The notes under the pieces were generated by a model. It was not told where the DNA came from. It made no database searches and saw nothing but the letters and a program-made list of their open reading frames with translations. Shown piece by piece: positions 12,897 through 28,428 of a DNA stretch of 33,491 nt (position 1 is the first letter of the stretch; each line of letters starts with the position of its first letter). The translations under genes were made by a program, and so were the position numbers. The stretch spans positions 1-33,491 of the forward strand of contig CACWIS010000019.1 of assembly GCA_902761055.1 (NCBI GenBank), written 5' to 3'. This DNA is from Oscillospiraceae bacterium. Its GTDB lineage: Bacteria > Bacillota > Clostridia > Oscillospirales > Oscillospiraceae.

Positions 12897-13430
12897 TTAC
12901 CGGTTGACGCGATCGACAAATGCGCGGAAGGATCTGATCCTCGGCAGCTGGCGCAGCAGCGTGTAGCCGATGAAGTACAGCACGCCCAGCTCGCCGACGC
13001 CGACGCTGGCCGCGTTGAAGACGAAGGATTTGATCGGCTCGGGGGCGGGCCGGATCTGATAGCCCCAGGTGAGGACGGCGCCGACGATGACGGCATTGAA
13101 CAGCACCGGCATCAGGCAGCCGAGAAGACGGTTTTTGACCGTGTCCCCCTTTTTCCCGAAGTATGCCGTGAACAGTGCGGCGAGCAGCGTGGCCAGCGAG
13201 CCGAAAACGATGTCGATCACGCTGCCGGTATAGAGATTGGCGAGGATGCAGCCGATCCAGAGGCCCCAGATCGTGCAGGGCATGAGGAAGGGCAGGACGG
13301 TGAGCGCCTCGCTCACCCGGAACTGGACCGCGCCGTAGCTGATCGGCGCGAGCGCAACGGTCAGCGCGGCGTAGGCGGCGGCCACGACGGCCGCAGTCGT
13401 GATGCGAAGGGTCGGGATTCTTTTTTGCAT
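12897..13430 (-). CDS. queT: QueT-family queuosine precursor transporter
   Basis: This 177-residue membrane protein is the proposed substrate-binding (S) component of an ECF-type importer for queuosine precursors. The family block ISYGAVQFRVSEALTVLPF lies near residues 31-49, and about five hydrophobic segments follow. The start at 13430 is chosen over 13448 because GGAAGGA lies nine bases ahead of it and is part of a preQ1 riboswitch. No promoter is seen between the riboswitch and the ImmA-like gene stop 26 bases upstream. queH, another queuosine gene on the same strand, lies 15 kb away on the other side of the virus-like cassette. Confidence 0.92.
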   Translation of the reverse strand: MQKRIPTLRITTAAVVAAAYAALTVALAPISYGAVQFRVSEALTVLPFLMPCTIWGLWIGCILANLYTGSVIDIVFGSLATLLAALFTAYFGKKGDTVKNRLLGCLMPVLFNAVIVGAVLTWGYQIRPAPEPIKSFVFNAASVGVGELGVLYFIGYTLLRQLPRIRSFRAFVDRVNR

Positions 13431-13439
13431 GATTTGCGT

Positions 13440-13480
13440 TCCTTCCATTTTTTATTACACAGGGTGTGGAAACCTGTGGA
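13440..13480 (-). promoter_or_regulatory. preQ1-I riboswitch controlling queT translation
   Basis: On the minus strand, stem P1 is CACAGG (13478-13473) with CCTGTG (13463-13458). The loop UUUCCACAC contains UUCCA (13471-13467), which can pair with UGGAA (13447-13443) after an A-rich linker, giving the H-type pseudoknot of class I preQ1 aptamers. The ACACCC segment matches the family consensus. The 3' pseudoknot strand overlaps the Shine-Dalgarno GGAAGGA (13446-13440), so ligand binding should hide it and lower QueT synthesis. A CCCTGT just upstream (around 13489-13484) could compete for P1. Confidence 0.8.
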
Positions 13481-13506: not shown

Positions 13507-14130
13507 TCAGTCTCTCTCGACCGGGATCGGGCGCAGGGGGAAACGGCGCGCAAGGCCGTGCGTGTCGCAGACGATGGGCTTGGCCGTAAAGAGCGCCCGC
13601 AGCTCGTCCTCGTTCTCCTCGTACCAGCGCGCGGCGCTGTGCTCGCAGCTCTCCGAGATCCGGCAGAGCCGGGCGATGGCGGCGGGCGCGCAGACGCTGC
13701 GGTAGCGGAAATACACCGAGGGCGGCAGGAGCAGCATGGCCGCGGCGCGCTTGGCCTCGGTCTCGTAGCGCTGATAGCTCTCCTCGTCGTAGCTCTGGCG
13801 GGCGAGCGCGAAGCGCCGGTCCTCCGTGTGGCCGAGAAGCAGATGCATCAGCTCCTCCGCCATCGTAAAGCGGATGCGGTTGGGCGCCGTGCGGTCGTTG
13901 TAGCCGATCGTCCAGCGGCGGCCGGAGGACATCGCCACGCCGTCCGGGTTGCCCCAGACCGCGAAAACGGCGCTGCGCGCCATGCCGCCCTCCGTCAGTT
14001 CGCTCAGGGGCATCAGGCGCGCGCCGCAGACGCGGCAGAGCGCGGCGACGTCCACGGGCAGGCGGTATACGTATTTGCGGACAAGCTCGTTGACGACCGC
14101 GACGGCGGCGCGGTCAGATCCCGTCAGCAT
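13507..14130 (-). CDS. ImmA/IrrE-like protein with altered zinc motif
   Basis: This 207-residue protein resembles the ImmA/IrrE family, which in mobile elements cleaves the neighbouring repressor upon DNA damage. The family region reads FTMAEELMHLLLGH; the HExxH motif is EELMH at residues 92-96, so the first zinc-binding histidine is glutamate. The later LLGH and a downstream acidic, helical region are kept. The gene overlaps the end of the XRE repressor gene by 17 bases, typical of an anti-repressor/repressor pair. It may still bind the repressor without cleaving it, or may use another metal geometry. Transcription can continue into the queT leader. Confidence 0.75.
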   Translation of the reverse strand: MLTGSDRAAVAVVNELVRKYVYRLPVDVAALCRVCGARLMPLSELTEGGMARSAVFAVWGNPDGVAMSSGRRWTIGYNDRTAPNRIRFTMAEELMHLLLGHTEDRRFALARQSYDEESYQRYETEAKRAAAMLLLPPSVYFRYRSVCAPAAIARLCRISESCEHSAARWYEENEDELRALFTAKPIVCDTHGLARRFPLRPIPVERD

Positions 14131-14470
14131 CGCGGAACTCCTCCGGAAAGGCGATCTGCAGCAGGCGGAGCATGTCCTGTCGCCGCTCCGGCGACATCTT
14201 TTTGCCCGCGCGGGCGATCATCGTGATCTCCGGCAGCTCCTCCGCGCTCTGTTCCCGCGCGTCCGCCCCGTCCCAGGGAGCCAGCGCGGAGGCGGGCAGG
14301 CCGAGCGCCGCCGAGAGCCGCAGCAGGCGGTCCATCGGGATCTTCTCGGTCGCGCCGGTCGCATAGCGCTGGATCGCGGATTTCGGGACGCCGGTGATCC
14401 GGGAGAGCTCACCGTAGCTGATCCTGCGTTCTATGATCGCGTCGTAAAGACGCTTTGCGATCTCATTCAT
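14114..14470 (-). CDS. XRE-family helix-turn-helix repressor
   Basis: This 118-residue protein has an N-terminal lambda-repressor-like HTH (residues ~5-60, with GELSRITGVPKSAIQRYATG as recognition region) and a C-terminal tail, MSPERRQDMLRLLQIAFPEEF, common in phage repressors. It should hold the rightward operon silent and control itself. ATGs further upstream lie inside the -10 box of its own promoter and are excluded; 14470 and 14476 remain possible. With the predicted start of transcription near 14480 the leader is only a few bases, and a GGTG sits at its very end. The GTCCCA repeats in the intergenic space are its likely operators. Confidence 0.85.
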   Translation of the reverse strand: MNEIAKRLYDAIIERRISYGELSRITGVPKSAIQRYATGATEKIPMDRLLRLSAALGLPASALAPWDGADAREQSAEELPEITMIARAGKKMSPERRQDMLRLLQIAFPEEFRDADGI

Positions 14471-14486
14471 GTTCATCACCGGGAGC

Positions 14487-14515
14487 ATCATAGCACATCT
14501 GTCCCAAAAATGCAA
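14487..14515 (-). promoter_or_regulatory. Promoter of the repressor operon
   Basis: Minus strand TTGCAT (14515-14510) and TATGAT (14492-14487) with a 17-base spacer. A GTCCCA half-site (14501-14506) lies inside the spacer, which suggests autorepression. Confidence 0.75.
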
Positions 14516-14596
14516 TAGTGTTTGGCTGTGTTTTTATTTTTGTCCCATTTTCGGGTTGACAATCCGCCCTCTTTGTGCTATGATAGGATCGTCCCA
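14500..14596 (+). repeat. Three direct GTCCCA operator half-sites
   Basis: GTCCCA occurs at 14501-14506, 14542-14547 and 14591-14596, each followed by an A/T run. They lie within the repressor promoter, just upstream of the -35 of the rightward promoter, and just downstream of its -10. Their spacing is 41 and 49 bases, roughly four to five helical turns. They are likely repressor-binding sites; this is inference from position and repetition. Confidence 0.65.
14556..14584 (+). promoter_or_regulatory. Strong promoter of the particle operon
   Basis: A perfect -35 TTGACA (14556-14561) and TATGAT (14579-14584) with a 17-base spacer form the best promoter in the window. It is the only clear one for the genes from 14723 to 28428, which are packed with overlaps and short gaps. 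Confidence 0.85.
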
Positions 14597-14655
14597 AAAA
14601 TAAAACGATACATGATCCACCGCGCCGCAGAGGGTGCGTGGGTTCCTTTTTTGCG

Positions 14656-14683
14656 CCATTCGTCCCAATAATGGGACGAATGG
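14656..14683. promoter_or_regulatory. Palindromic operator or hairpin upstream of terS
   Basis: A perfect inverted repeat, CCATTCGTCCCA (14656-14667) and TGGGACGAATGG (14672-14683), is separated by ATAA. Its core is GTCCCA-N6-TGGGAC-like and reuses the half-site found three times upstream. It may be the strongest repressor site or an RNA hairpin in the operon leader. Confidence 0.65.
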
Positions 14684-14722
14684 CGGGACGGGCGGCTCCG
14701 CCCTTCGGAAGGGAGGCTTGCA

Positions 14723-15175
14723 ATGGAAAAACCGGACTGGGACGCGATCGCCGCGGCCTACGTCGAGGGCGCGGAGAGCATGCGCGCGGTCGCGCGCCGC
14801 TTCGGCGTGCCGCTGACGACGCTGCGCGGTCACGCGCAGCGGGAGCGCTGGGAGCAGCGCCGCCGGGCGCGGCAGTTCGAGGCGCTCGCGCAGGAGCGGG
14901 CGGCGGGCGACGGCGGCGAGGCGATCTTCCGATTGACCGACAAGCTCGTCCGCCGGGCCGAGGAGCTGGTGGACGGCGGGGCGGAGATCAACGCGCGCGA
15001 GCTCGGCGAGCTGATGCGCGCGCTCAAGGGCGCCAAGGAGATCCGCATGCTGCGCTCCGCGCTCGACGAGCGCGAGCAGGCGGCGCGCGTCCGGGCGCTG
15101 GAGGAAAAGAACGCGCCGCCGGACAATGTGCTGCGCATCGAATTCGGCCCCGGCACGGAGGAGGCGGCGCAGTGA
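14723..15175 (+). CDS. terS: Terminase small subunit
   Basis: This 150-residue DNA-recognition subunit of the packaging motor has an N-terminal helix-turn-helix (residues ~20-45, with AVARRFGVPLTTLRGHA) followed by RERWEQRR, as in phage small terminases. A helical oligomerisation region follows (~55-135). The ATG at 14723 has a GGGAGG site. The stop overlaps the GTG start of the large subunit by four bases. It should choose which DNA enters the capsid; the recognised site (cos or pac) was not identified in the window. Confidence 0.88.
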   Translation: MEKPDWDAIAAAYVEGAESMRAVARRFGVPLTTLRGHAQRERWEQRRRARQFEALAQERAAGDGGEAIFRLTDKLVRRAEELVDGGAEINARELGELMRALKGAKEIRMLRSALDEREQAARVRALEEKNAPPDNVLRIEFGPGTEEAAQ

Positions 15176-16614
15176 AGCTGCTCATCCCGCCGCCCTCGGA
15201 GAAGCAGCGGCTGTTTTTGAACGACGCCCACCGCTACGTCGCCTTCGGCGGCGCGCGCGGCGGCGGCAAGAGCTGGGCCGTGCGCGTCAAGGCCGTGATG
15301 CTGTGCGAGGCGCACCCCGGCATCAAGGTGATGATCGTGCGCCGCACCTACGGCGAGCTGCGCGCGAACCACATCGTCCCGCTCTGCGCGCTGCTGCGCT
15401 GCGGCGAGGAGGGCGCGCGGCGGCTCGCCGTCTACAACGACACGAAGAAGGAGCTCGCCTTCCCCAACGGCAGCCGGATCCTGTTCCGCTACTGCGACAC
15501 GGACCGCGACGCCGACCGTTTTCAGGGCACCGAGGTGGACGTGCTGTTCGTCGACGAGGCGACGCAGCAGCCCGAGGAGCGCATGGACAGGCTGCGCGCC
15601 TGCGTGCGCGGCGTGAACAGCTTTCCGAAGCGCGTCTATTATACCTGCAACCCCGGCGGCGTCGGCCACGGTTGGGTCAAGCGGCTGTTCCTCGAGCGGC
15701 GCTTCCGTCCCGGCGAGCGGCCGGAGGACTATGTCTTCATCCCCTCGCGCGTCACGGACAACCTGGCCCTGATGCGCGCCGATCCTGAGTATCTGCGGCG
15801 GCTCGAGGCGCTGCCGGAAAAGCTGCGCGAGGCCTGGCTGAACGGGAACTGGGACGTTTTCGAGGGCCAGTTCTTCGAAGAATTCCGCACGAGCCCCGAT
15901 CTCGCCGCGGCGCGCGCGGCCGGCTGCGAACTCGGCGAGGACGAGCTGCGCCGGCAGGGCCGCTGGACGCACGTGATCGAGCCGATCGATCTCTCCCGCG
16001 GCGCGGCCGCGGGCTGGAAGATCTGCCGCAGCTACGACTTCGGCTACGGCAAGCCCTTTTCCTGCGCGTGGTGGGCCGTGGACTACGACGGCGTGATCTA
16101 CCGCGTGCTGGAGCTCTACGGCTGCACGGCCACGCCGAACGAGGGCGTGAAGTGGCCGCCGGAGAGGCAGTTTTCCGAGATCGCGCGCATCGAGCGCGAG
16201 CACCCCTGGCTGCGCGGCAAGACGATCGCCGGCGTGGCGGACCCGTCGATCTGGGACGCCTCGCGCGGCGAGAGCGTGGCCGAGACGGCGGCGCGCTGCG
16301 GCGTGGTTTTCACGCCCGGGGACAACAAGCGCGTCGCGGGCTGGATGCAGCTGCACTACCGTCTGCAGTTCGACGAGAACGGATACGCGCGGATGTACGT
16401 GTTCTCCGGCTGCAGGGCCTTTATCCGCACGATCCCGCTGCTGCTCTACGATCCGCGCGTACCGGAGGATCTCGACACTTCGCTGGAGGATCACGCCGCG
16501 GACGACGCGCGCTATTTCTGTATGTCGCGGCCGGTGCGCGCGCTGCGGAGCACGGCGGAGCCGGAGGTCTTTTTCGATCCGCTGGATCAGATGAAACGGA
16601 AAACCAGGAGGTAA
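15172..16614 (+). CDS. terL: Terminase large subunit
   Basis: This 480-residue packaging ATPase and nuclease has Walker A GGARGGGKS (residues 26-34), Walker B VLFVDE (124-129) and coupling motif YYTCNPGG. The nuclease part is marked by SYDFGYGKPFSCAWW, GVADPSIWD and a final EDHAADDARYF, giving the acidic metal ligands. The start is GTG at 15172, overlapping the small subunit stop, with GGAGGAGG just upstream. All key motifs are intact, so the motor appears functional. The full length and intact catalytic residues argue against a decayed remnant. Confidence 0.95.
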   Translation: MKLLIPPPSEKQRLFLNDAHRYVAFGGARGGGKSWAVRVKAVMLCEAHPGIKVMIVRRTYGELRANHIVPLCALLRCGEEGARRLAVYNDTKKELAFPNGSRILFRYCDTDRDADRFQGTEVDVLFVDEATQQPEERMDRLRACVRGVNSFPKRVYYTCNPGGVGHGWVKRLFLERRFRPGERPEDYVFIPSRVTDNLALMRADPEYLRRLEALPEKLREAWLNGNWDVFEGQFFEEFRTSPDLAAARAAGCELGEDELRRQGRWTHVIEPIDLSRGAAAGWKICRSYDFGYGKPFSCAWWAVDYDGVIYRVLELYGCTATPNEGVKWPPERQFSEIARIEREHPWLRGKTIAGVADPSIWDASRGESVAETAARCGVVFTPGDNKRVAGWMQLHYRLQFDENGYARMYVFSGCRAFIRTIPLLLYDPRVPEDLDTSLEDHAADDARYFCMSRPVRALRSTAEPEVFFDPLDQMKRKTRR

Positions 16615-16620
16615 TCAAGC

Positions 16621-18450
16621 ATGGACCAACAAACAAGCGCCCCGATCGTGGACAGCGCCCGTCTCGAGGAGCTGACGCGCATCCTGCAGCGCTACAAGAG
16701 CGGCAAGGCGCAGCTCGAGCGGCGCGTCGTCGCCGCGGAGAACTGGTGGAAGCTGCGCAACGGCGCCGAGGAGAGCCGCGAGAGCGCCTTCTCGGACGGC
16801 GGCTTCCGCTCGAAGAGCGGCTGGCTGCACAACGTCATCGTCTCCAAGCACGCCGACGGCATGGAGGCCTACCCCGAGCCGCTGATCCTGCCGCGCGAGC
16901 CGGACGACGCGGCGGAGGCCGGGATGCTCACGGCCGTCGTGCCGGTCGTGATGGAGCAGAACCGCTTTGAGGACGTGTACAGCGACGCGCTGTGGGCCAA
17001 GCTCAAGACCGGCACGGGCGTGTACAAGATCGTTTGGGACGCCTCGAAGCTCGGCGGGCTGGGCGATATCGCGATCTGCCCGGTCGATCTGCTCAATCTG
17101 TTCTGGGAGCCGGGCGTCAAGGACATCCAGGACAGCCGCTATTTCTTCCATACCGCGCTCGAGGACAACGATCTGCTCGCCGAGCGCTGGCCGCAGCTCA
17201 AGGGCGCGCTGCGCCCCGGGGCCTTCGCGGCGACGAAGTTCCTCTACGACGACGCGGTCCCGACCGACGGCAAGAGCACGGTGATCGACTGCTACTACAA
17301 AAAGTGGGACGGCGGCCGGCAGCTGCTGCACTACGTCAAGTACGTCGGCGACGTCGTGCTCTACGCCAGCGAGAACGAGGGCGCGCCGCTCTACGAGCAC
17401 GGGCGCTATCCCTTCGTGTTCGACCCGCTCTTTCCCGTCGAGGGCAGTCCCTGCGGCTACGGCTTCGTGGATCTGTGCAAGAATCCCCAGACGGCGATCG
17501 ACCTGATGGACAGCGCCTTCATCCGCAACACGATGGTCGGCGCGATGCCGCGCTATTTCAAGCGCCAGGACGCCGGGATCAACGAGGAGGAGCTGCTCGA
17601 TCTTTCCAGGCCGCTGGTCGCCGTGGACGGCAATCTCGGCGAGGACGCGCTGAAGATCATCGACTTCAGGCCGCTGTCCGGCAATTACATCGAATACCAG
17701 CGCGAGCGCATCCGCGAGCTGCGCGAGACCTCCGGCAACACGGAGACGGCCACGGGCAACCTCGCCCAGGGCGTGACCGCGGCCTCGGCCATCGCGGCGC
17801 TGCAGGAGGCCAGCGGCAAGGGCAGCCGCGACAGCACGCGCGGCAGCTACCGCGCCTATACGGCGGCGGTCGAGCTCGTCATCGAGCTGATCCGCCAGTT
17901 CTACACCCTCCCCCGCCGCTTTCGCATCGCCGGACGGAGCGGCGCGGCGGAATTCGTCTCCTACTCCAACGCCGCGCTGCGGCCGCAGGATCAGGGGGCG
18001 CTCGCCGGACAGGAGCTGGGGCTGCGCATGCCGCTGTTCGATATTGAGGTCCGCGCCCGCAAGTCCAGCCCCTACACGCAGGTCAGCCGCAACGAGCTCG
18101 CGCTGCAGTTCTACAACCTCGGCTTCTTCGACCCGGGCCGCGCCGAGCAGGCGCTGCTGTGTCTGGACATGATGGATTTCGACGGAAAAAGCGAGCTGAT
18201 GGAAAAGCTCCGCGCGCTCGGCGGCGAGCGGGAAAAGCTGCTGGCCTTCCGTTCGCTGGCGCTCGCGCTGGCGGCGAAGTACGAGCCGCAGCTCGCCGAG
18301 GGGCTGGCCGACAGCGCCGGAGACGAGACGCCGCGGTCAAAGGCCGGACCCCTGCCGCGGCTGCGCGGCGGGGAGAAGACGGAGCGGCCGCAGCTGCGCG
18401 CCGTCCGGGAGCGCACGCGCGCTGCGAGCCAGCCGGAGGCGGCGCGATGA
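16621..18450 (+). CDS. Portal protein
   Basis: This 609-residue protein would form the dodecameric ring through which DNA enters and leaves the capsid. It follows terL after six bases with an AGGAGGT site. Size, position and features such as NWWKLRNGAEE near the N-terminus, a CYYKKW strand, and the helical AIAALQEASGKGSRDS stretch fit large portals of podovirus-type elements. The C-terminal ~60 residues are Arg/Pro-rich and low in complexity. The stop overlaps the next start (ATGA). The call rests on context and resemblance. Confidence 0.85.
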   Translation: MDQQTSAPIVDSARLEELTRILQRYKSGKAQLERRVVAAENWWKLRNGAEESRESAFSDGGFRSKSGWLHNVIVSKHADGMEAYPEPLILPREPDDAAEAGMLTAVVPVVMEQNRFEDVYSDALWAKLKTGTGVYKIVWDASKLGGLGDIAICPVDLLNLFWEPGVKDIQDSRYFFHTALEDNDLLAERWPQLKGALRPGAFAATKFLYDDAVPTDGKSTVIDCYYKKWDGGRQLLHYVKYVGDVVLYASENEGAPLYEHGRYPFVFDPLFPVEGSPCGYGFVDLCKNPQTAIDLMDSAFIRNTMVGAMPRYFKRQDAGINEEELLDLSRPLVAVDGNLGEDALKIIDFRPLSGNYIEYQRERIRELRETSGNTETATGNLAQGVTAASAIAALQEASGKGSRDSTRGSYRAYTAAVELVIELIRQFYTLPRRFRIAGRSGAAEFVSYSNAALRPQDQGALAGQELGLRMPLFDIEVRARKSSPYTQVSRNELALQFYNLGFFDPGRAEQALLCLDMMDFDGKSELMEKLRALGGEREKLLAFRSLALALAAKYEPQLAEGLADSAGDETPRSKAGPLPRLRGGEKTERPQLRAVRERTRAASQPEAAR

Positions 18451-18761
18451 TCCGCGCGCGCTACGGCCGGCGGAGTCTTTCGCTGGAGCTCCGCGGCCAT
18501 GCGGCGAGCGCGCCCAGGGGCGAGGACCTCGTCTGCGCGGCGGCCTCCGTGCTGGCCTTTACGGCGGCGGAGGCGCTGCGGGACGAGAGCGAGCGCTTTT
18601 ATCCGCGCATCGTCACGCGCCCCGGCGAGCTGCGGATCGCCTGCGAGCCCGCGTCCGGCTCGCGGCGCGCCTGCCGCAGGCTGCTGGACACGATCTGGAT
18701 CGGATTCGAGCTGCTCGCGCGGGACTATCCCGCCTGTGTGAGCGCCGAGAAGGAGGATTGA
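18447..18761 (+). CDS. Prp-family cysteine protease encoded in the capsid operon
   Basis: This 104-residue protein matches the ribosomal-processing cysteine protease Prp (YsxB-like) family. The catalytic pair is H18 in RGHA and C30 in EDLVCAAAS, twelve residues apart as in the staphylococcal enzyme. Chromosomal Prp removes the N-terminal extension of ribosomal protein L27 and, in Staphylococcus, also trims phage capsid and scaffold proteins. Here the gene lies inside the head operon, overlapping the portal stop by four bases, and the scaffold and capsid proteins downstream carry QLFA and QFFA motifs. It probably acts as the prohead maturation protease. The start is fixed by the overlap. Confidence 0.85.
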   Translation: MIRARYGRRSLSLELRGHAASAPRGEDLVCAAASVLAFTAAEALRDESERFYPRIVTRPGELRIACEPASGSRRACRRLLDTIWIGFELLARDYPACVSAEKED

Positions 18762-18762
18762 C

Positions 18763-19905
18763 ATGTTGATGGCAAAAGACAGCGGCGGCGCATCGCCGCT
18801 GAAAAAGAACGGGACGGCGAAAAAGGTGAAAAACACGCCGCCCGCAACGATCAAAAAGCCCTCGCTGCGCGAGCTGCCGCCCGTCGAGGAGGCTCCGGCC
18901 ACGGCGCCGAAGCAGACGGCCTCCGGCGGCGCGTCCGGCGGCGGGAGCTCCGGCGGCAAGAGCAAGGGCGGCGCCTCCGGTTCCGGCGGCGCGGCCTGGA
19001 CGGTCGATCTCGGCAGAGAGATCGCCTTCGAGGCGCCCGCGGAGGACGCGGAGGCCAGAGCGAATTACAACAGCGCGCTCGAACGCCTCGGAGAGATCCG
19101 CGGCGCGGCGCCGCAGTACGACAGCCGCTATGACGAGCAGATCCAAAGCCTCTATGAGCAGATCACGGGGCGCGGCTCCTTCCGCTACGACCCCAACACC
19201 GATCCGCTCTACCGGCAGTATGCGCAGGACTATGCCGAGCGCGGCAAACTCGCGATGGAAGACACGATGGGACGCGCCGCCGCGCTGACGGGCGGCTACG
19301 GCTCGTCCTACGCGCAGGCCGTCGGGCAGCAGCAGTACGACGCCTATCTGCGGCGTCTGGCCGAGGTCCTGCCCCAGACCTACGGCATGGCGCTGGACGT
19401 ATGGAAGGCCGAGGGCGAGGGGCTGCAGCGGCAGCTCGAGACGACCGAGGCGCTGGAGCGGAGCGACTACGACCGCTACCTCGACGCGCTCGGAGAGCAC
19501 AACCGCGAGCTCGACCGCGCCCAGAGCGCGGCGGATCAGGCTTACGAGCGCATGATCGCCGGCGACGAGCGCGCCTACGGCCGCGCCGTGGACGACTACG
19601 GCCGCCGCGTGTACATGGAGGAGCGCGACTACGGCCGCAGGCAGGACTATTACGACCGCCTCGTGCGTCTCATCGCCGCGGGCTACAGCCCCCGTGCGAA
19701 GGATTACGCGCTCGCCGGCATGAGTCCCGCCCAGGGTGCCGCGCTGCGCGCGCAGTATCTCGCCGGCACGAGCCGCTCTTCCGGCGGCGGAGGCGGCCGG
19801 AAGAAAAAGGGAAAAGATAAAAAGACCCCGGGCGCGGGCGGCTCCTATGCGGGCGGGCTGAACAAGAGCGGCGCGTCGGACAGAAAGACGCCGAACCGAC
19901 GCTGA
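18763..19905 (+). CDS. Putative internal virion or ejection protein
   Basis: This 380-residue protein has no function I can name. The N-terminal ~85 residues are basic then Gly/Ser-rich. The core (~90-345) is helical, rich in Tyr, Arg and Gln, with a striking block FRYDPNTDPLYRQYAQDY followed by AMEDTMGRAAALTGGYGSSY. The C-terminus is again Gly-rich and strongly basic (GGGGGRKKKGKDKK). This block recurs, as far as I recall, in similar capsid loci of gut Clostridia. Long helices with basic tails between portal and scaffold fit a DNA-contacting internal protein or a substitute for a tape measure. The ATG at 18763 is preferred because AAGGAGG precedes it by six bases. Confidence 0.6.
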   Translation: MLMAKDSGGASPLKKNGTAKKVKNTPPATIKKPSLRELPPVEEAPATAPKQTASGGASGGGSSGGKSKGGASGSGGAAWTVDLGREIAFEAPAEDAEARANYNSALERLGEIRGAAPQYDSRYDEQIQSLYEQITGRGSFRYDPNTDPLYRQYAQDYAERGKLAMEDTMGRAAALTGGYGSSYAQAVGQQQYDAYLRRLAEVLPQTYGMALDVWKAEGEGLQRQLETTEALERSDYDRYLDALGEHNRELDRAQSAADQAYERMIAGDERAYGRAVDDYGRRVYMEERDYGRRQDYYDRLVRLIAAGYSPRAKDYALAGMSPAQGAALRAQYLAGTSRSSGGGGGRKKKGKDKKTPGAGGSYAGGLNKSGASDRKTPNRR

Positions 19906-20083
19906 CGCGGCCGTCCGGGCGGGCGGCGGGAAAAAAGCAGCCGGGGAAGGAGCAGACAGACGGGCGCGCCGATGCAGGCGCCTTTCGCGGCGCGATCCCG
20001 GTATTTGCAAGATGCGCGGGGGCGAGGTCCCCGGCGTTTTGAGAGCCGCGGGCTTAACCCGCAGAAAAAAGGAGGCATCCGAT
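19906..20083 (+). other. 178-base non-coding gap inside the operon
   Basis: This is the longest gap in the particle operon. No convincing gene is seen; an open frame upstream of and in phase with scaffold exists but lacks a ribosome site. A small hairpin GCGGG-CTTAA-CCCGC (20048-20062) sits directly ahead of the scaffold GGAGG site. Other GC-rich inverted segments occur around 19960-20035. It may hold an RNA element or a packaging-related site. Confidence 0.4.
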
Positions 20084-20791
20084 ATGCAAAACAGGTTTTT
20101 GGCCGATCTCCAGCTTTTCGCCGCCGATGAGAGCGCTCCGGCGGCCGCGGAGACGGCTTCGGGCGCAGAAGCTGCCGACGCCGGGCAGCAGAATCCCCTG
20201 CCGGACACGCCGGAAACGGCGCAGCCGGCGGAGCGCACCCCGGCCCGACGGAGCTGGGAGGAGGTCCGCGCCGAGTACAAGGACGATTTCGACGCGGAGG
20301 TGCAGAGCATCATCCAGAAGCGCCTGCGCGGCGTGCAGGACAGGCTGCGGCGCTACGCCGAGCGCGAGGAGCGGGAACGCTCGGCCGGGCAGCGGCGCCG
20401 CAGCGAGGCGGGCGAGCACTTTGAGCGCCTCTGCGAGCAGGCCGAGGCGCTGCGGGAAAAGCTGCCGGACTTCGATCTGGCGCGCGAGCTGCGCAGCGAC
20501 GCCTTCGCCTCGCTGACGCAGCCCGGCTCGCCCGTCACGCTCGAGCAGGCCTACCGGGCGCTGCACCCCGAGCTTCGGCTGCGGGAGGCGGAGGCCGTCG
20601 CCAGACGCGCGGCCGAGGCCGTGGGCGAGGCGGTGCGCGCCGGCGCGGCGAGGCCGCGCGAAAACGGCGCGCAGAGCGCCTCTCTCGCTTCCCCGTCCCA
20701 CCGCGGTCTCAGCCCGGCGCAGCGCGAAGAGCTGCGGCGGCGGATCTACGCCGCGGGCGCCCGCGGCGACCACCTCCCCGCCGGAGGCTGA
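20084..20791 (+). CDS. Scaffold-like protein with N-terminal Prp-type site
   Basis: This 235-residue, highly charged, largely helical protein lies immediately before the major capsid gene, the normal place for a scaffold. The first residues read MQNRFLADLQLFA, then an Ala/Pro-rich stretch, then coiled-coil-like charged helices (~60-200). The LQLFA ends at residue 13, as does IQFFA in the capsid protein, matching the L27-type cleavage motif. The start at 20084 has GGAGG and places this motif at the N-terminus; an upstream in-frame ATG at 20012 is less likely. Cleavage after Ala13 would leave a mature N-terminus ADES. Confidence 0.8.
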   Translation: MQNRFLADLQLFAADESAPAAAETASGAEAADAGQQNPLPDTPETAQPAERTPARRSWEEVRAEYKDDFDAEVQSIIQKRLRGVQDRLRRYAEREERERSAGQRRRSEAGEHFERLCEQAEALREKLPDFDLARELRSDAFASLTQPGSPVTLEQAYRALHPELRLREAEAVARRAAEAVGEAVRAGAARPRENGAQSASLASPSHRGLSPAQREELRRRIYAAGARGDHLPAGG

Positions 20792-20813
20792 ACCAAACAT
20801 TTCAGGAGGAATT

Positions 20814-21941
20814 ATGGAAAGGACTTTTGACTTCGACATCCAGTTTTTCGCCGACGCGGGCACGCTCGTGAACGCGACCGGCAACTACGTCAACGCAAAC
20901 ACCGGCGAGACGACCGCCTTCTCCGGCAGCAACACCCTGAGCGCCGAGATGAAGGACTTTTACGACACCGAGCTGCTGGAGAACGCGCGCGTCGAGCAGT
21001 TCTACGCGCAGTTCGCCAAGCGCCAGCCGCTGCCGAAGAACCACAAGGGCACCGTCGAGTGGCGCAAGTGGAACAGCTTTGCCCCGGCCGCCCAGCTGAC
21101 CGAGGGCGTGATCCCCACCGGCCAGAAGTTCGGCGTGAGCGCCGTCACCGGCACGATCAACCAGTACGGCACCTATACCGCCATCACCGACCGTCTCGAG
21201 CTGCGCGCCTACGACGACGTGATCCTCGGCGCGACCGAGGAGATGGGCGCCTCCGCCGCCGAGACGCAGGAGAAGCTGATCCGCGACGCGCTGCTGGTCA
21301 ACACGAACGTGCTGTACTGCGACAACATCGTGCTCGCCACCGGCGCGAAGACCGCCGACGCGGCCGCCTCGGGCGGCAACCCCGCCGTGAAGGGCACGCC
21401 CGACGCGCCGGGCTACATGCTCGACGACGGCACCAATCGCAGCGTGCTCACCCCGGCCATGGTCAACAAGGCCGTGACCATCCTCAAGAAGAACCGCGTG
21501 CCGCGCATCAACGGCCGCTACTACGCGGTCATCCACCCCTCCGTGGCGCACGACCTGCGCGAGTGCGAGGGCTGGATCGAGGCGCACAAGTACGCCGCGC
21601 CCGACGAGCTGTTCAACGGCGAGATCGGCGAGCTGCACGGCGTGCGCTTCATCGAGGACGTCTTCGCCCCGGTGCTGGGCGGCAGCACCTACAAAAACGC
21701 CCAGGAGGGCGTGACCTACGCCACTTACTTCTTCGGCAAGGACAGCTTCGGCTCGATCGATCCCGAAGGCGGGGCGCTGGAAATGATCATCCACGACAAG
21801 GGCGAGATCGGCGGACCGCTCAATCAGTTCTCGACCATCGGCTACAAGTTCGAGACCAACGGCGCGACGATCCTCTATCCCGAGCGCCTGCTGCGCGTCA
21901 TGAGCTGCAGCTCTTACAGCGCGAGCGATTCCACGAACTGA
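20814..21941 (+). CDS. Major capsid protein, N4-gp56 family
   Basis: This 375-residue HK97-fold shell protein is of the N4-gp56 type. Recognisable parts are SAEMKDFYDTELLENARVEQ near residues 43-62, KNHKGTVEWRKW, and ATYFFGKDSFGSID with TIGYKFETNGATIL near the C-terminus. The N-terminal MERTFDFDIQFFA carries a Prp-type site that ends at residue 13. An AGGAGG site precedes the ATG. It is followed by a terminator-like hairpin, which could raise its level over downstream tail proteins. The reading frame is intact and full length. Confidence 0.9.
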   Translation: MERTFDFDIQFFADAGTLVNATGNYVNANTGETTAFSGSNTLSAEMKDFYDTELLENARVEQFYAQFAKRQPLPKNHKGTVEWRKWNSFAPAAQLTEGVIPTGQKFGVSAVTGTINQYGTYTAITDRLELRAYDDVILGATEEMGASAAETQEKLIRDALLVNTNVLYCDNIVLATGAKTADAAASGGNPAVKGTPDAPGYMLDDGTNRSVLTPAMVNKAVTILKKNRVPRINGRYYAVIHPSVAHDLRECEGWIEAHKYAAPDELFNGEIGELHGVRFIEDVFAPVLGGSTYKNAQEGVTYATYFFGKDSFGSIDPEGGALEMIIHDKGEIGGPLNQFSTIGYKFETNGATILYPERLLRVMSCSSYSASDSTN

Positions 21942-21951
21942 TCCCGACCGG

Positions 21952-21976
21952 GAGGGCGGGGCGACCCGCCCTCTTT
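21952..21976 (+). terminator. Terminator-like hairpin after the capsid gene
   Basis: Stem GAGGGCGGG (21952-21960) and CCCGCCCTC (21965-21973) with a GCGA tetraloop, followed by only TTT. It is probably a partial terminator or an RNA-stabilising hairpin within the operon. Confidence 0.5.
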
Positions 21977-22001
21977 CACAAAACCATGACAGGAGGTCAA
22001 C

Positions 22002-22229
22002 ATGAAGGACAACGAGTGCTTTGTCGAGGTCTTTATCCCGCGCAGCGCGGCCAACAAGGACCCCAATTTTTACGTCGGCATCAACGGCGTGAGCTACCTG
22101 CTGCCCCGCGGCAGAAAGAGCCGCATCCCCGCCGCCGCGGCCGCCGAGATCGAGCGCGCGCGCCGCGCCGAGGAGGCGATGTACGAGGCGCAGGACGCGC
22201 TCAAGAGCAAGGCCGAGCCCGGCGCCTGA
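22002..22229 (+). CDS. Small head-associated protein, unknown
   Basis: This 75-residue protein starts behind AGGAGG. The N-terminal half is strand-like (CFVEVFIPR, NFYVGINGVSYLLPRG), the rest a charged Ala/Glu/Arg helix. Small proteins of this sort directly after N4-gp56 capsid genes are common and may decorate or join capsomers. I do not recognise a named family. Confidence 0.6.
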   Translation: MKDNECFVEVFIPRSAANKDPNFYVGINGVSYLLPRGRKSRIPAAAAAEIERARRAEEAMYEAQDALKSKAEPGA

Positions 22230-22244
22230 CGCGGGGGTGCGGCC

Positions 22245-22613
22245 ATGACCGTCAACGAACTGATCGCCGCGGTGGATCTCAAGGAGCCGAACAGCTGCAG
22301 CGCCGAGGAAAAGCGCCGCTGGCTCTCCGCGCTCGACGGCAAGATCCACGCGGAGGTGCTGCTCGGCCACGAGGGCGGACCGACCGCGGCCTTCGCCGCC
22401 TATACGGACGGCTCTGAGGAGCTGCTCATCCCCTTCCCCTACGCCGAAGGCGTCTATACCCACTACCTGATCGCCATGATCGCCGCGCTCAACGCGGAGG
22501 CCGCGCGCTACAACCAGCAGATCGCCATGTACAACGCGAACTTCAGCCAGTGGTGGAACGCCTATCACGCGGCGCACACGCCGCTGCACGCGGGGAAACG
22601 ATTTCTTTTTTAG
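22245..22613 (+). CDS. Possible head-tail connector protein
   Basis: This 122-residue protein starts at ATG 22245 after a G-rich site. It is helical, with a C-terminal helix rich in Asn, Tyr and Gln (EAARYNQQIAMYNANFSQWW). Its place between capsid and tail genes and its size fit a connector or head-completion protein. There is no firm family assignment. Confidence 0.55.
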   Translation: MTVNELIAAVDLKEPNSCSAEEKRRWLSALDGKIHAEVLLGHEGGPTAAFAAYTDGSEELLIPFPYAEGVYTHYLIAMIAALNAEAARYNQQIAMYNANFSQWWNAYHAAHTPLHAGKRFLF

Positions 22614-22625
22614 GAGGTGCGCATC

Positions 22626-24383
22626 ATGCCGCTTTATCCCAGGCTGCGTCCGACGCTGACGCAGCAGGATGTGATCGACTGCTTCGGCGGCTATGACCAC
22701 CGGCTCAGGATCCCCGACGGCTGCTGGTACGACACGAAAAACCTGAGCTCGGACCACGCGCCGATGCTCGCGAGCCGGCCGCCGCGGGGCGATACGCACA
22801 TCCGCGCCGCCGCCCTGGCCGAAAAGGACGCGCTCGCCTACGTCTCGGAGGACGGCACGCTGTATTACAATTTTCTGCCCACGCCGCTGACGGGCCTCGC
22901 CTCCGGCGACAAGCAGATCGTCGGCATGGGCGCCTATCTCGTGCTCTTCCCGGACAAGCTCTATCTCAACACCGAGGACCAGACGGACCACGGCTCGCTC
23001 GAGGCGCATTACCACGCATCGTCCGCGCACTATGAGATGGTGCGCGGCGACGGCGCCGCGATCGGCGCCGACTACATCCAGCCGCTCCCGCCCGCCGAGC
23101 CCGCCAACGGGGAGTACTGGATCGACACCTCCGGCGAGCGCCATGCGCTGCGGCAGTGGTCCGCCGCGCAGAACGACTGGGTCGGCATCGAGACGGCGTA
23201 CGTCAAGATCACCTTCCCGACGCTCGGCACGGTCCCGGCGCTGTTCCGGGAGGGGGACGGCGTGACGATCTCCGGGTCGGAAACGGAGGGCGTGAACGGG
23301 GAGAGGATCCTCTGCGCCCTCGGTGGCGGAGAGGAGGAGGCCGACTGGATCATGGTCACGGGTCTGCTGGAGCAGGCCGTGACCGACGGCGGCCTCACGA
23401 TCGAGCGCCGCGTGCCGCCGCTCGACTATGTCTGCGAATGCCAGAACCGTCTCTGGGGCTGCTGGTACGGAGAGGACGGCGGGCGCGCCGTCAACGAGAT
23501 CTTCTGCTGCGCGCTGGGCGACTTCAGGAACTGGCGGCAGTACCGCGGCCTGTCCACGGATTCCTGGAGCGGCTCGGTCGGCTCGGACGGGCCGTGGACC
23601 GGAGCGGTGAACTATCTCGGCTGCCCGACCTTTTTCAAGGCCGACCGCATCCACCGCGTCAGCGTCTCGGCGGAGGGCGCGCACGCGATCGGCGAGACCG
23701 TCTGCCGCGGCGTGCAGAAGGGCAGCGCGCGCTCGCTGTGCGTGGTCAACGAGACGCTGTATTACAAATCGCCCGGCGACGTCTGCGCGTACCAGGGCGG
23801 CTTTCCGCGCGGCATCTCCGCCGCCCTCGGCGAGACGCGCTTCCACGGCGCCGCGGCGGGCGCCGTGAACGGCAAGTACTATCTGTCGATGCTCGACGAG
23901 GCCGGGACGCCCTCCCTGTTCGTCTACGACATCGCGCGCGAGCTCTGGCTGCGCGAGGACGCGCTGCACGCCGCGGCCTTCGCGCGCGTCGACGACGAGC
24001 TCTACGCGATCGCGAACGGCGAGCTGCTCACCCTGCTCGGCTCGCTGCCCGTCCCGGGCGCGACGGGCGAGGGCAGCGTGGACTGGGAGGCCGTAACGGG
24101 CGTCGAGTACTACACGGTGCCGGAGAACAAGCGCGTGTCGCGCTACCAGATCCGTCTGCGCATGGCCCCGGGCGCGCAGTTCTCCGTTTTCGTGCAGTAC
24201 GATTCCAACGGCGTCTGGCGCAGCGCGGGCAGCATCAGCGCCGTGCGCGCGGAGACCGGCTCGCACCTCTTCCCCGTGCGGCCGCGCCGCTGCGACCATC
24301 TGCAGCTCAAGCTCGCCGGGAGCGGAGACGTCCGCGTCTTTTCGGTGGCGCGCATCCTGGAAGTGGGGAGCGATTACCGATGA
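22626..24383 (+). CDS. Tail nozzle-like (beta-propeller) protein
   Basis: This 585-residue protein resembles the tail-tube nozzle or stabilisation proteins of podoviruses. The N-terminus names listed ligand-like repeats (WYDTKNLSSDHAPMLASRPP), then QNRLWGCWYG and CCALGDFRNWRQYRG, typical of such propellers, in which blade repeats often read 'N.I..SALGD..NW'. The start at 22626 has AGGAGGT; an in-frame GTG at 22617 overlaps that site and is rejected. The stop overlaps the next gene (ATGA). A nozzle rather than a tape measure points to a short tail. Confidence 0.65.
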   Translation: MPLYPRLRPTLTQQDVIDCFGGYDHRLRIPDGCWYDTKNLSSDHAPMLASRPPRGDTHIRAAALAEKDALAYVSEDGTLYYNFLPTPLTGLASGDKQIVGMGAYLVLFPDKLYLNTEDQTDHGSLEAHYHASSAHYEMVRGDGAAIGADYIQPLPPAEPANGEYWIDTSGERHALRQWSAAQNDWVGIETAYVKITFPTLGTVPALFREGDGVTISGSETEGVNGERILCALGGGEEEADWIMVTGLLEQAVTDGGLTIERRVPPLDYVCECQNRLWGCWYGEDGGRAVNEIFCCALGDFRNWRQYRGLSTDSWSGSVGSDGPWTGAVNYLGCPTFFKADRIHRVSVSAEGAHAIGETVCRGVQKGSARSLCVVNETLYYKSPGDVCAYQGGFPRGISAALGETRFHGAAAGAVNGKYYLSMLDEAGTPSLFVYDIARELWLREDALHAAAFARVDDELYAIANGELLTLLGSLPVPGATGEGSVDWEAVTGVEYYTVPENKRVSRYQIRLRMAPGAQFSVFVQYDSNGVWRSAGSISAVRAETGSHLFPVRPRRCDHLQLKLAGSGDVRVFSVARILEVGSDYR

Positions 24384-25108
24384 TCCGCGAGCTGCCCCCG
24401 CAGCCGCAGGGAACGGCCGAGCAGCAGCTCGCCGCGCTGCGGGATTATCTTGTGCGGCTCGCGCAGTCTCTCGACGAGGCCGCCGGGAGCGCTCTCGCCG
24501 CTCCGCTCTCCTCCTCCGCGCTGCAGCGGCAGAACGAGAAAGCTGTGCGCGACAGCGCCGAGACGCTCAAGGCGCTGATCGTCAAAACCGCCGAGCAGAT
24601 CACCGAACGCGCGGACCGCAGGGCGGAGGAATACAAGGCGCTGTATGTGGCGCAGTCCGACTTCGGCAGCTATTACAGCGCGATCGAGTCGCAGGTGTGC
24701 GCCACGGCGCGGGGCACGGTGGAGAGCTTCCGCTATGACGAGGCCATCGAGGCGCTCGAGCGCTATACGCGCACGCTCGACGGCCAGATCCGGCGCGGCG
24801 CGGTCGAGGACCCGTACACGCACGAGATCCACCTCGGCATCGCGATCAGCGAAAAGCTGTCCTTCACCGGGGAGACCGTCACCGCGGACGGCCTCGCCTA
24901 CCGGAAGCTCGCGGCCGGGCAGACGCTGGGGCTCTACACCTCCAAAGGCTGGCAGTTCTGGATCGGCGGCGTGCGGAGCGGCTGGTTTTCCTCGGAGGAC
25001 AGCATGCTGCACATCGCCAACCTCGTCGTCGAGGAGCGGCTGCAGCTCGGCGCGAGCTGGGAATTCGGGGTCGACGGCGGCTTCGGCCTGCGCTACACGG
25101 GAGGATAA
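24380..25108 (+). CDS. Tail or fibre-adaptor protein, unknown
   Basis: This 242-residue protein overlaps the nozzle-like gene by four bases. The first ~130 residues are helical and coiled-coil-like; the rest is rich in short strands (LAYRKLAAGQTLGLYTSKGW, SWEFGVDGGFGLRYTGG), like the end of a fibre or adaptor. It ends one base before the start of the large fibre gene. It may link the nozzle to the fibre. No named family was recognised. Confidence 0.55.
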   Translation: MIRELPPQPQGTAEQQLAALRDYLVRLAQSLDEAAGSALAAPLSSSALQRQNEKAVRDSAETLKALIVKTAEQITERADRRAEEYKALYVAQSDFGSYYSAIESQVCATARGTVESFRYDEAIEALERYTRTLDGQIRRGAVEDPYTHEIHLGIAISEKLSFTGETVTADGLAYRKLAAGQTLGLYTSKGWQFWIGGVRSGWFSSEDSMLHIANLVVEERLQLGASWEFGVDGGFGLRYTGG

Positions 25109-25109
25109 G

Positions 25110-27077
25110 ATGGCATACGAATACGTCCGGACACAGTATATTGATATCGGCGGCACGGTCTACTGGAACACTCTCGGCACAAGGAGCTTCACCTATCGCT
25201 TCGCCCTCGCCGAGCAGTACGATCCGGAGGCGAACCGAACGCGGCTCAGTCTCTCCGCGGCGCAGCTCAGCGTGAACGTCAGTCAGCATGCGGCCGTTTA
25301 CGGCAAGCTGCTCCTCAACGGCTCCGTCGCCGCCCATTTCCGCGGCGCTTCCGTGACGAGCGTGCCGGGCAGCTTCGTCGGCTTCGGCTCGGGCGGCTCG
25401 GTCACGGTCGAGCACGACGCGCTCGGCGCGGCGCCCAACGTCTCGCTCAGCTTTGCCAAGGCCGACGGCGCGCCGGCCGGTCTCGGCAGCAACTTCGGCT
25501 TCACGCCGGAGAGCGGCGTCGTGGTCGGCTTTTCCGTCGGCACGAAACGCTCCGTCCCGATCACGACGCATCCGCGCGCCTCGTCGATCGCCTCCTGCCC
25601 CGCCTCCGTCGAGACCGGCGCGGAGCTCGTGCTCAACGTCACGCGCCATTCGCAGAGCTTCCGGCACAAGGCCGTGTTCCTGGTCGGGGAGGACGTGCTC
25701 GGCGTGAGCGAGGCCTTTGATACGACGCTGCGCTTCACGGTCCCGCGGAGCTGGTTCGCCAATTATCCGGCGCTCTCCGTCCTGGACGCGGCGGTCTGCG
25801 TGCAGACCTACAGCGACGAGGCCTGCGTCACGGCCGTCGGCAGCGCGGCGAGCGCGCCGCTCTCCGTCCAGGCCGACGCGGGCATGAAGCCGGCCGTCTC
25901 CGCCGGCTGGGCCGTGCTCTCGGCGCTCAACGGCGGCGCGGTCGAAGGGCTGAACGGCTACATCCTGGGCTATTCGCGCGCGCAGGCGCTCTTCGACCCG
26001 ACGAAGATCGACCTCACGGCTTCGCCCGGCGCGTCGATCGCCTCGTATGCGCTCGCCTGTCAGGGCGAGACCGTCTCGGCGAGCCCATACCGCACGGGCG
26101 TGCTGACCGCGCTCTCCGTCGAGGTCCTCTGCACGGTGACGGACACGCGCGGCCGCAGCGCGGGCGAGCGCTTCACGCTTTCCGTCATGGACTACGCGCC
26201 GCCGACGCTCGGCGGCGTCTCGATCTGCCGCAGCGACGAGGACGGCGCGCCGGCCGCAGACGGCGGGCATTGCGCCGTGAAAGCCGACGCCGTGTTCTCG
26301 TCGCTCGGCGGGCAGAACAGCTGCGCGCTGCGCTGCGCGATCATGCCGGCGGGCGGCGCCTACGGCGCGGAGAGCCGTCTTCAGAGCGGCGTGCGGAGCG
26401 TCTTCGATTCGATCTCGCCGGATCGGAGCTATACCGTGCGCCTCACGGCCGAGGACGCGCTCGGCAATACGGCGGTGTTTTACCGGAGCATCCCGACCCG
26501 CCGCTGGGCGATGAAGTTCCGCTCCAACGGGCGCGGCGTCGCCTTCGGCAAGGCGGCGGAGCACGACGACTGCTTCGAGGTCGGCGCGGACTGGAGCGTG
26601 AAGCTCGGCGCCCCGCTCGGGGTGACGAGCGGCGGCACCGGAGCGGACAGCGCGGCCGCGGCCCGCGCCAATCTCGGACTCAAGGGCGCGTCGACGCTCG
26701 AGCCCGGAGAGCTGCTCTCGCTGGTCTATCCGGTCGGCAGCCTCTATCTGTCCGTGAACTCGACAAACCCCGGCACGCTGTTCGGCGGGACGTGGGTGCA
26801 GATCGAAGACACCTTCCTTCTCGCTGCCGGCCAGACCTATACCGCAGGCGCCACGGGCGGCGAGGCGGCGCATACGCTGACGGTCGACGAGATGCCGAGC
26901 CATAATCACACGGTGGCGAGAGGCACCGGTACCGGCTCGGTCGAGTGGGGTCTCGTGCGCTACGGTTCGCAGAACTCAAGCGCGGACGGCACGCGCATCG
27001 CGCAAACCGGCGGCGGACAGCCGCACAACAACATGCCGCCGTATCTGGCGGTCTATATCTGGAAGAGGACGGCATGA
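25110..27077 (+). CDS. DUF859-like fibre with tail-collar-like tip
   Basis: This 655-residue protein has an N-terminal and middle region (~1-480) resembling DUF859 phage minor structural proteins, with many repeated strand segments. Then comes GVTSGGTGADSAAAARANLG, a fibre-type repeat, and a C-terminal tip with YPVGSLYLSVNSTNPGTLFG, TVDEMPSHNHT and HNNMPPYLAVYIWKR, as in tail collar and receptor-binding proteins. It would determine which cells are bound. The start at 25110 follows the previous stop after one base; GGAGG ends about four bases before it. The frame is intact. Confidence 0.8.
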   Translation: MAYEYVRTQYIDIGGTVYWNTLGTRSFTYRFALAEQYDPEANRTRLSLSAAQLSVNVSQHAAVYGKLLLNGSVAAHFRGASVTSVPGSFVGFGSGGSVTVEHDALGAAPNVSLSFAKADGAPAGLGSNFGFTPESGVVVGFSVGTKRSVPITTHPRASSIASCPASVETGAELVLNVTRHSQSFRHKAVFLVGEDVLGVSEAFDTTLRFTVPRSWFANYPALSVLDAAVCVQTYSDEACVTAVGSAASAPLSVQADAGMKPAVSAGWAVLSALNGGAVEGLNGYILGYSRAQALFDPTKIDLTASPGASIASYALACQGETVSASPYRTGVLTALSVEVLCTVTDTRGRSAGERFTLSVMDYAPPTLGGVSICRSDEDGAPAADGGHCAVKADAVFSSLGGQNSCALRCAIMPAGGAYGAESRLQSGVRSVFDSISPDRSYTVRLTAEDALGNTAVFYRSIPTRRWAMKFRSNGRGVAFGKAAEHDDCFEVGADWSVKLGAPLGVTSGGTGADSAAAARANLGLKGASTLEPGELLSLVYPVGSLYLSVNSTNPGTLFGGTWVQIEDTFLLAAGQTYTAGATGGEAAHTLTVDEMPSHNHTVARGTGTGSVEWGLVRYGSQNSSADGTRIAQTGGGQPHNNMPPYLAVYIWKRTA

Positions 27078-27943: not shown

Positions 27944-27957
27944 GGAGAGAAAAGAAC

Positions 27958-28428
27958 ATGAACGCACCCGATAAAGCGACGGAGATCAAGGCCGTCATCA
28001 CGCTCGCGCTGAGCTTCCTCACGGGACTGTGGGGCTGGCTGGGCTGGGCGATCGCGGTCTTTGCGGTCTCGATGTGCGCGGATTATCTCACCGGCAGCTG
28101 GGCCGCCCGCGCCTGCGGCGAATGGTCGAGCGCGGCCGCCCGCCAGGGCCTGTGGCACAAGCTCGGCGAGATCGCGGCGCTGCTGGTGGCGGCGCTGTGC
28201 GATATCGCCGTACAGGTCATCCTGCACAGCACGGCCGCGCCGCTGCTCGGCGAGACCCCCTCGCGGCACTATCTCACGCTGATCGTCGCGATCTGGTATA
28301 CCTTCACCGAGCTCGGCAGCATCATCGAGAACGCCGGCAAGCTCGGCGCGCCGATCCCGGAGGGGCTGCGGCGCGGTATCGCCCTGCTGCGGGACAAAAC
28401 CGAAAGCGGGAGCCCGGACAAGGGTTAA
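27958..28428 (+). CDS. Phage holin, toxin-secretion/lysis family
   Basis: This 156-residue membrane protein has three likely membrane segments (about residues 12-42, 68-92 and 100-120). It belongs to the holin group including TcdE-like proteins, with features such as CADYLTGSWAA and WHKLGEIAALLVA. It should form the pore that lets the endolysin out. A GGAGA site precedes the ATG, and it is the last gene of the operon, followed by a strong hairpin. Confidence 0.88.
   Translation: MNAPDKATEIKAVITLALSFLTGLWGWLGWAIAVFAVSMCADYLTGSWAARACGEWSSAAARQGLWHKLGEIAALLVAALCDIAVQVILHSTAAPLLGETPSRHYLTLIVAIWYTFTELGSIIENAGKLGAPIPEGLRRGIALLRDKTESGSPDKG

Follow-up and report, generated by a model that had tools for sequence, protein, structure and literature searches.

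A virus-derived element lodged between queT and queH in the genome of an Oscillospiraceae bacterium encodes, within its head operon, a cysteine protease of the Prp family together with two proteins that begin with predicted Prp-type cut sites, a scaffold-like protein and the N4-gp56 family major capsid protein. The element lies in contig CACWIS010000019.1 of assembly GCA_902761055.1, of which the whole analyzed stretch of 33,491 nucleotides is called the window here (positions are those of its forward strand). Judging from these genes and their relatives, it is very probably a self-supplied version of the capsid processing that phage 80alpha obtains from Prp. Prp is chiefly known as an enzyme essential to ribosome maturation and as a candidate drug target, and its best-studied viral role is the one for which 80alpha borrows it. 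The genes and sites concerned are:

18447 to 18761, plus strand: Prp-family cysteine protease with H18 and C30 (PF04327, 55 bits; AlphaFold model)
20084 to 20791, plus strand: scaffold-like protein (phrog_13908, which has no function assigned there; called scaffold from its position upstream of the capsid gene)
20084 to 20122, plus strand: scaffold N-terminal predicted Prp-type site, MQNRFLADLQLF↓A (motif)
20814 to 21941, plus strand: N4-gp56 family major capsid protein (TIGR04387, 190.7 bits against a cut-off of 60; phrog_1357)
20814 to 20852, plus strand: capsid N-terminal predicted Prp-type site, MERTFDFDIQFF↓A (motif)

The protease gene encodes 104 amino acids, and its ATG overlaps the stop codon of the portal gene. 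An earlier note on this DNA had placed a Prp-family gene with H18 and C30 in the head operon, and the assignment holds. The protein matches PF04327 well above the cut-off of 27 bits (9.7e-15), and both residues, along with G17 and D27, are invariant in an alignment of 61 phage Prps that includes the window copy. A simple H...C pattern fits 137 of 141 phage Prp matches (the window copy being counted twice); two of the remaining four have another neighbor residue beside the H or C, and two are clipped at contig ends. The structure prediction recommended in the earlier note likewise agrees with Prp: the AlphaFold model (mean predicted local distance difference test score, pLDDT, 96.1) gives its best template modeling (TM) score, 0.85, to Staphylococcus aureus Prp (7kld), and it matches 14 PDB chains at E <= 0.001, from the same entries that are found by a Prp profile (2g0j, 2g0i, 7kld, 7jvs, 1s12, 2idl and 4peo). 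Thus, by Pfam cut-off, His/Cys dyad and fold, the protein belongs to the Prp family (PF04327, MEROPS C108).

This enzyme is the only Prp found in the window genome (1.89 Mb). The gene order there is rplU-rpmA-obg, without prp, and ribosomal protein L27 is the short form, which starts MAHKKG and has no in-frame start upstream. The search for a second prp beside rpmA proposed in the earlier note came back empty, and no other Prp was seen elsewhere in this genome, which is 80.7% complete. A laboratory Escherichia coli strain, searched as a control, gave no Prp. A chromosomal Prp that processes L27 lies between rplU and rpmA and accompanies a long L27; the window Prp does neither.

The scaffold-like protein begins MQNRFLADLQLFA and the capsid protein MERTFDFDIQFFA, and the motif common to the two is (L/I)Q-x-F↓A, where the arrow marks the predicted cut. 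Since Prp is described as cutting between F and A (PMC5744158, PMC9405229), the cut predicted in both window proteins is F12↓A13, after residue 12. The shared N-terminal motif recognized in the earlier note therefore stands, but its supposed endpoint at residue 13 does not: the cut would follow F12, and the distance of the motif from the start Met varies among relatives, so that residue 13 is no rule. The relatives comprised the best 80 of 91 viral matches and the best 80 of 95 genome matches; another 22 loci were added from the top 80 of a set of 244 viral matches (loci and genomes are given L and G numbers below). We counted the motif in 3,094 open reading frames (ORFs) of at least 60 amino acids with an ATG and a Shine-Dalgarno start, drawn from 183 sequences (182 loci and the window). 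Of these, 170 of 179 capsid proteins and 103 of 168 scaffolds have it no farther than 27 residues from the start, compared with 16 of 2,747 other ORFs, so its presence on capsid and scaffold is not chance. With any start allowed, the motif is found in 179 of the 183 capsid rows, and the four without it are L078, L127, L151 and L159, the last clipped by a contig end. Among 104 phages with both sites (not dereplicated), the P2 residue is identical in capsid and scaffold in 85, against an expectation, from the marginal frequencies, of about half. A structure model of the capsid (mean pLDDT 44.2) was not used.

Site and enzyme are also linked across the relatives. After dereplication of the portal-bearing loci at 97%, 100 were left, of which 93 have motif and Prp, four the motif only, three neither, and none Prp only (Fisher 2e-4, a value that ignores kinship); L142 is scored as Prp-positive because its Prp lies on the same contig, just beyond the fetched stretch. 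A more sensitive search of the seven exception loci found no hidden Prp. The survey of N4-gp56 loci thus gave the linkage that the earlier note had anticipated, and its proposal of a self-contained module of protease and substrates is supported as well by two informative kinds of exception, namely loci in which motif and protease are absent together and loci in which the protease is absent where the host has one.

In the first kind, the three motif-less capsids (L078, L127 and L151) amount to three changes on the capsid tree, two of them forced by starred branches of what is a quick tree without bootstrap. Two of these loci are close to relatives that have both motif and Prp (core identity 91% for L151 and 88% for L127), and their genomes have a short L27 and no Prp that we could find; for L078, no Prp is present on its 12-kb contig. 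In the second kind, the motif-only loci L154, L155 and L157 sit in host genomes whose prp directly adjoins a long L27. That L27 begins MLKLNLQLF↓A or MLRLNLQLF↓A, the capsids begin MIRLNLQHF↓A or MLKLNLQHF↓A, and six to eight of the nine residues before the cut match the host L27; the corresponding figure for 17 Prp-carrying phages in long-L27 hosts is two to four of nine (mean 3.1). By their sequences these three loci seem to rely on the host enzyme in the manner of 80alpha, and because they are close kin they may represent a single event. Enzyme and site are thus found together, are absent together, and part where the host offers the enzyme, a distribution that serves as a natural experiment on the function of the cut.

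Several loci that appeared to have no Prp (L092, L104, L124, L126, L161 and L162) have one farther out on the same contig. The same six have a giant ORF of at least 2,500 to 2,900 codons just upstream of the scaffold gene (L092:2-8737, L104:1-8562, L124:117-8750, L126:1-8811, L161:2-8929 and L162:1-8730), most of these ORFs exceeding the fetched stretch. When 13 viral records were searched whole, Prp was found in six (L009, L010, L039, L063, L079 and L082) and not in the other seven, which are mostly short.

The host genomes associate Prp with the phage in another way. The 79 host genomes considered are the window's and 78 more; in 64 of them the L27 form could be assigned, as short in 42 and long in 22. 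Prp lies beside L27 in 21 of the 22 long-L27 genomes and in none of the 42 short-L27 genomes; 38 of the latter have Prp elsewhere, and four show none, G002 (L127), G004 (L151), G043 (L088) and G044 (L094). For the window genus, 37 genomes were compared. Of the 20 in which the capsid family occurs, 17 have Prp; of the 17 in which it does not, none has (p = 9e-8, uncorrected for kinship and partly based on the same phages as the locus set). Among the capsid-positive genomes, Prp is missing from G316, which has the motif-less L151, and from G290 and G320, where no more than about 520 bases separate the capsid gene from a contig end. A 2022 review proposes other roles for Prp in bacteria with a short L27 (PMC9405229, in the portion available to us). 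The Prp of the short-L27 window genome is a virus gene, and some Prp genes in such bacteria are thereby explained as viral property.

In the mechanism that we propose, the viral-branch Prp would be translated right after the portal and would trim 12 residues from the start of both the scaffold and the major capsid protein, cutting F12↓A13 at the (L/I)Q-x-F↓A site during procapsid assembly. The process would resemble the processing of 80alpha by host Prp, with the enzyme supplied by the element, which would make it independent of a host Prp. What the analysis shows is which family the enzyme belongs to and what its fold is, where the sites lie, that site and enzyme are linked and jointly absent, and that this genome has a short L27 and no other Prp in sight; that cleavage takes place, when it does so and that it is important for the particle, we infer.

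A number of observations weigh against this mechanism. The scaffold site is rarer than the capsid site and is missing from many relatives, so that only the capsid protein, and not both proteins together, counts as a constant substrate. On the Prp tree and on the capsid tree alike, the P2 residue at the capsid cut site requires 16 changes, and hence it follows the enzyme's tree no more closely than the capsid's. The capsids of L088 and L094 bear the motif in short-L27 genomes in which no Prp was found, and L087 and L153 bear it without Prp in genomes whose L27 was not classed; all four contigs are cut near the head genes. L121 has a single candidate Prp, which sits at the edge of a different contig, next to a relative of the 380-amino acid gene; this may be the remainder of its prophage. 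Two loci on cut contigs, L135 (where L27 is long and the only Prp is the host's) and L141, are decisive neither way. In MT835607 (L291), 22.6 of 25.4 kb were examined, and this stretch showed the capsid motif and no Prp. Finally, the cut itself may be dispensable, since 80alpha is reported to be viable with uncleavable or pre-cleaved capsid protein and to assemble with uncleaved scaffold (PMC5744158, in the parts available).

The earlier note had suggested that the element brought in the host protease, which could also act on host L27, and a captured ribosomal enzyme that acts on L27 or interferes with it is the first alternative to consider. In its favor, YsxB/Prp and the enzyme share a Pfam family, and a second Prp, away from L27, accompanies the adjoining one in 17 long-L27 genomes. 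However, neither half of the suggestion agrees with the window genome, which shows a short L27 and, as far as it is complete, no Prp other than the element's own. Moreover, when 98 phage and 37 dereplicated chromosomal Prps were placed in one tree, a single branch (100/99) parted the two groups. The chromosomal set comprised the best-scoring part of one class and the hosts' own copies, the phage set came from one capsid family, and the tree had 101 columns, so the split argues against recent capture in these lineages and leaves older exchange aside; the chromosomal Prps L255 and L272, whose L27 neighbor missed the search pattern, fell outside it. The 104-amino acid protein also scores far below the cut-off of the NCBIfam Prp equivalog models, which describe the chromosomal enzyme (34.7 of 135 bits at best), and the phage P2 residue is unlike that of host L27 in all 17 long-L27 hosts of Prp phages (uncorrected for kinship), a difference that may reflect clade-wide preferences. 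Capture of a host Prp with action on L27 was accordingly rejected for the window host (short L27, no other Prp seen, tree split), and we regard it as a very improbable account of the element's enzyme. Whether the viral or the ribosomal Prp came first can now be addressed by phylogeny.

We likewise consider it unlikely, if less so, that the main task of Prp is to bind the N-terminal peptides, whether to chaperone assembly or to time it, with cleavage secondary. In accord with such a role, the 80alpha scaffold is reported to need its N-terminal sequence and not the cut (PMC5744158), and a chaperone role of Prp on L27 has been proposed (PMC9405229), both according to the parts of these papers at hand; yet binding alone would require neither the invariant His/Cys dyad nor the F↓A pair that is kept in nearly all capsids. 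Proteolytic processing of the capsid protein by the element's own Prp thus remains the reading that we favor.

The system is like that of 80alpha in the protease family, in the LQ-x-F↓A type of site, and in the two kinds of substrate, capsid and scaffold, that bear it at the N-terminus (as described in the available text of PMC5744158 and PMC9405229). Processing of 80alpha by host Prp is established there, and the purpose of the cut is said to be unclear (PMC5744158). Unlike 80alpha, which uses an enzyme from the host chromosome, the window element encodes its Prp, and its host shows no other Prp and no long L27. Phage Cp-1 also has an enzyme of its own: a protease of MEROPS clan CR, encoded by the phage, is reported to trim its major head protein at the N-terminus (PMC12445089, available portion). 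We infer that this protease is Cp-1 orf13. Unlike the window Prp, orf13 falls below the PF04327 cut-off (18.5 of 27 bits); the Cp-1 head protein loses 48 residues (PMC12445089, as far as available), against the 12 predicted here, and the start of the Cp-1 capsid protein, unlike that of the window, has no LQxFA site.

Eight named phages, chosen from 10 and 26 records, offer a second likeness: phiFL3A, Lj965, PLgT-1, BL3, phi9805, TP712, TMW 1.1365 P3 and DO134P1, from hosts in Enterococcus, Lactobacillus, Lactococcus, Brochothrix, Oenococcus, Latilactobacillus and Dorea. As in the element, Prp (a "peptidase", DUF464) lies just past the portal gene (where a portal is annotated), and LQ-x-F sites are present on both scaffold and capsid. 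P2 is R in several of the phages, and in two the residue that follows the cut is S or T. Their capsids belong to at least three Pfam families (PF20036, PF03864 and PF25209) and are not recognized by the capsid profile of the window family; most are Gp13-like or Phage_cap_E and differ from the window capsid, whereas those of PLgT-1 and TP712 are PF25209, as in the window. The capsids of DO134P1, which matches no capsid model, and TP712 were assigned by position. Sites across at least three capsid families indicate that the site follows the enzyme rather than one capsid family. Given Cp-1, with a protease of its own, and these phages, with Prp and motif on other capsid families, the principle is already known. 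In the open-licence literature, we found no paper that describes a phage-encoded Prp with matching sites and none that links enzyme and site in the eight named phages. Two of their Prps, L295 (phiFL3A gp45) and L297 (PLgT-1 Orf27), are called "ribosomal protein" in GenBank and "peptidase" in RefSeq, labels that call for caution in annotation. Phages Page and API480, with capsids found by profile, have no site on them and no Prp in the 12 kb shown.

More distant capsids of the genus (36-44% identity within it) also occur with Prp and sites, as do distant capsids at the level of the order. The site is on scaffold and capsid in L376, L377, L378 and L382; L379 has it on both, the capsid site lying about 30 residues into the frame as read, and L380 on the capsid only. 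L375 has both sites altered together, DLRLF and NLKLF, and this paired change, with a basic residue where Q is usual, suggests a protease with shifted specificity. In L381 the capsid has NLRRF and the scaffold no site, and L383 has neither a site nor, in its genome, a Prp.

The element as a whole is flanked by queT (12897-13448, minus strand) and queH (28479-29117, minus strand), and comprises, in addition to the genes listed above:

13507 to 28428, about 14.9 kb, no strand assigned: whole virus-derived element, with regulator, terminase, head, tail and lysis genes
13507 to 14130, minus strand: ImmA/IrrE-type metallopeptidase regulator (PF06114, 44.8 bits)
14114 to 14470, minus strand: XRE-type repressor, read from an internal start (listed ORF to 14515; PF13443, PF01381)
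14723 to 15175, plus strand: small terminase subunit (phrog_1206, 6.6e-9)
15166 to 16614, plus strand: large terminase subunit (PF03237, PF04466)
16621 to 18450, plus strand: P22-type portal (PF16510, 82.5 bits)
18763 to 19905, plus strand: 380-amino acid protein (no match in Pfam or PHROG; homologues in many related loci)
22245 to 24383, plus strand: 122- and 588-amino acid proteins, the latter of an internal virion protein family (phrog_12105, phrog_511)
25119 to 27077, plus strand: tail protein or fibre (PF21939, PF05895; phrog_372)
27041 to 28428, plus strand: GH25 endolysin and holin (PF01183, PF05105)

The element is found at the same queT-queH site in eight genomes including the window's (one or both boundaries seen): queT adjoins the same element genes in G016, G303, G312 and G318, and queH in G017, G291, G303, G311 and G318. 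Of the 36 other genomes of the genus, 20 have queT and queH side by side. Synonymous divergence from the window ranges over 0.29-0.85 for six element genes, compared with 0.20-0.78 for six flanking genes (galU was left out, as the frame used for it contained stops), and non-synonymous divergence in the same comparison reaches 0.22. The shared site and flank-like divergence fit a single old insertion followed by vertical descent with some gene exchange. Against vertical descent, the tail and lysin genes are more diverged, with synonymous values of 1.19 and 1.42 in G311, and in L086, L007 and L330 only 65 of the 302 lysin residues are matched. Prp is under constraint in four of the at-site genomes, with non-synonymous to synonymous ratios (dN/dS) of 0.10-0.31.

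Family searches recognized no integrase or replication genes among the element genes, several of which have no family match, so that a diverged gene could escape; no direct repeats longer than 9 bases mark its two ends. Structural and packaging genes unaccompanied by those for integration or replication, and vertical inheritance at a fixed chromosomal site, are both marks of a gene transfer agent (GTA), and they make the element a candidate domesticated or GTA-like system. From Faecalibacterium, a 2026 paper describes FpGTA, a podovirus-like agent; for Oscillospiraceae it reports packaging of a GTA-like kind (PMC12946183, in the part available). As described there, FpGTA resembles the element in gene content, with terminase, portal, scaffold, capsid, tail and lysis genes, no replication genes, and a podovirus-like character; it differs in having two operons, and the word "protease" appears nowhere in the main text of the paper. 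It is conceivable, though somewhat short of probable, that the element is a vertically inherited, podovirus-type GTA-like system of Oscillospiraceae relatives, its capsids matured by a dedicated viral branch of Prp that selection has kept in a genus showing no ribosomal use of the enzyme. If so, it would be a candidate source of packaging that has been reported as GTA-like in gut Oscillospiraceae and to which no operon has been assigned.

Two local differences were noted among relatives. G312 (contig C47; L158 and L328), one of the eight genomes that share the insertion site, has a broken capsid reading frame, through either decay or an assembly fault. L085 (5334-9306) and L007 (4758-7230) carry about 4.0 and 2.5 kb of extra DNA, not present in the window, between the 380-amino acid and scaffold genes.

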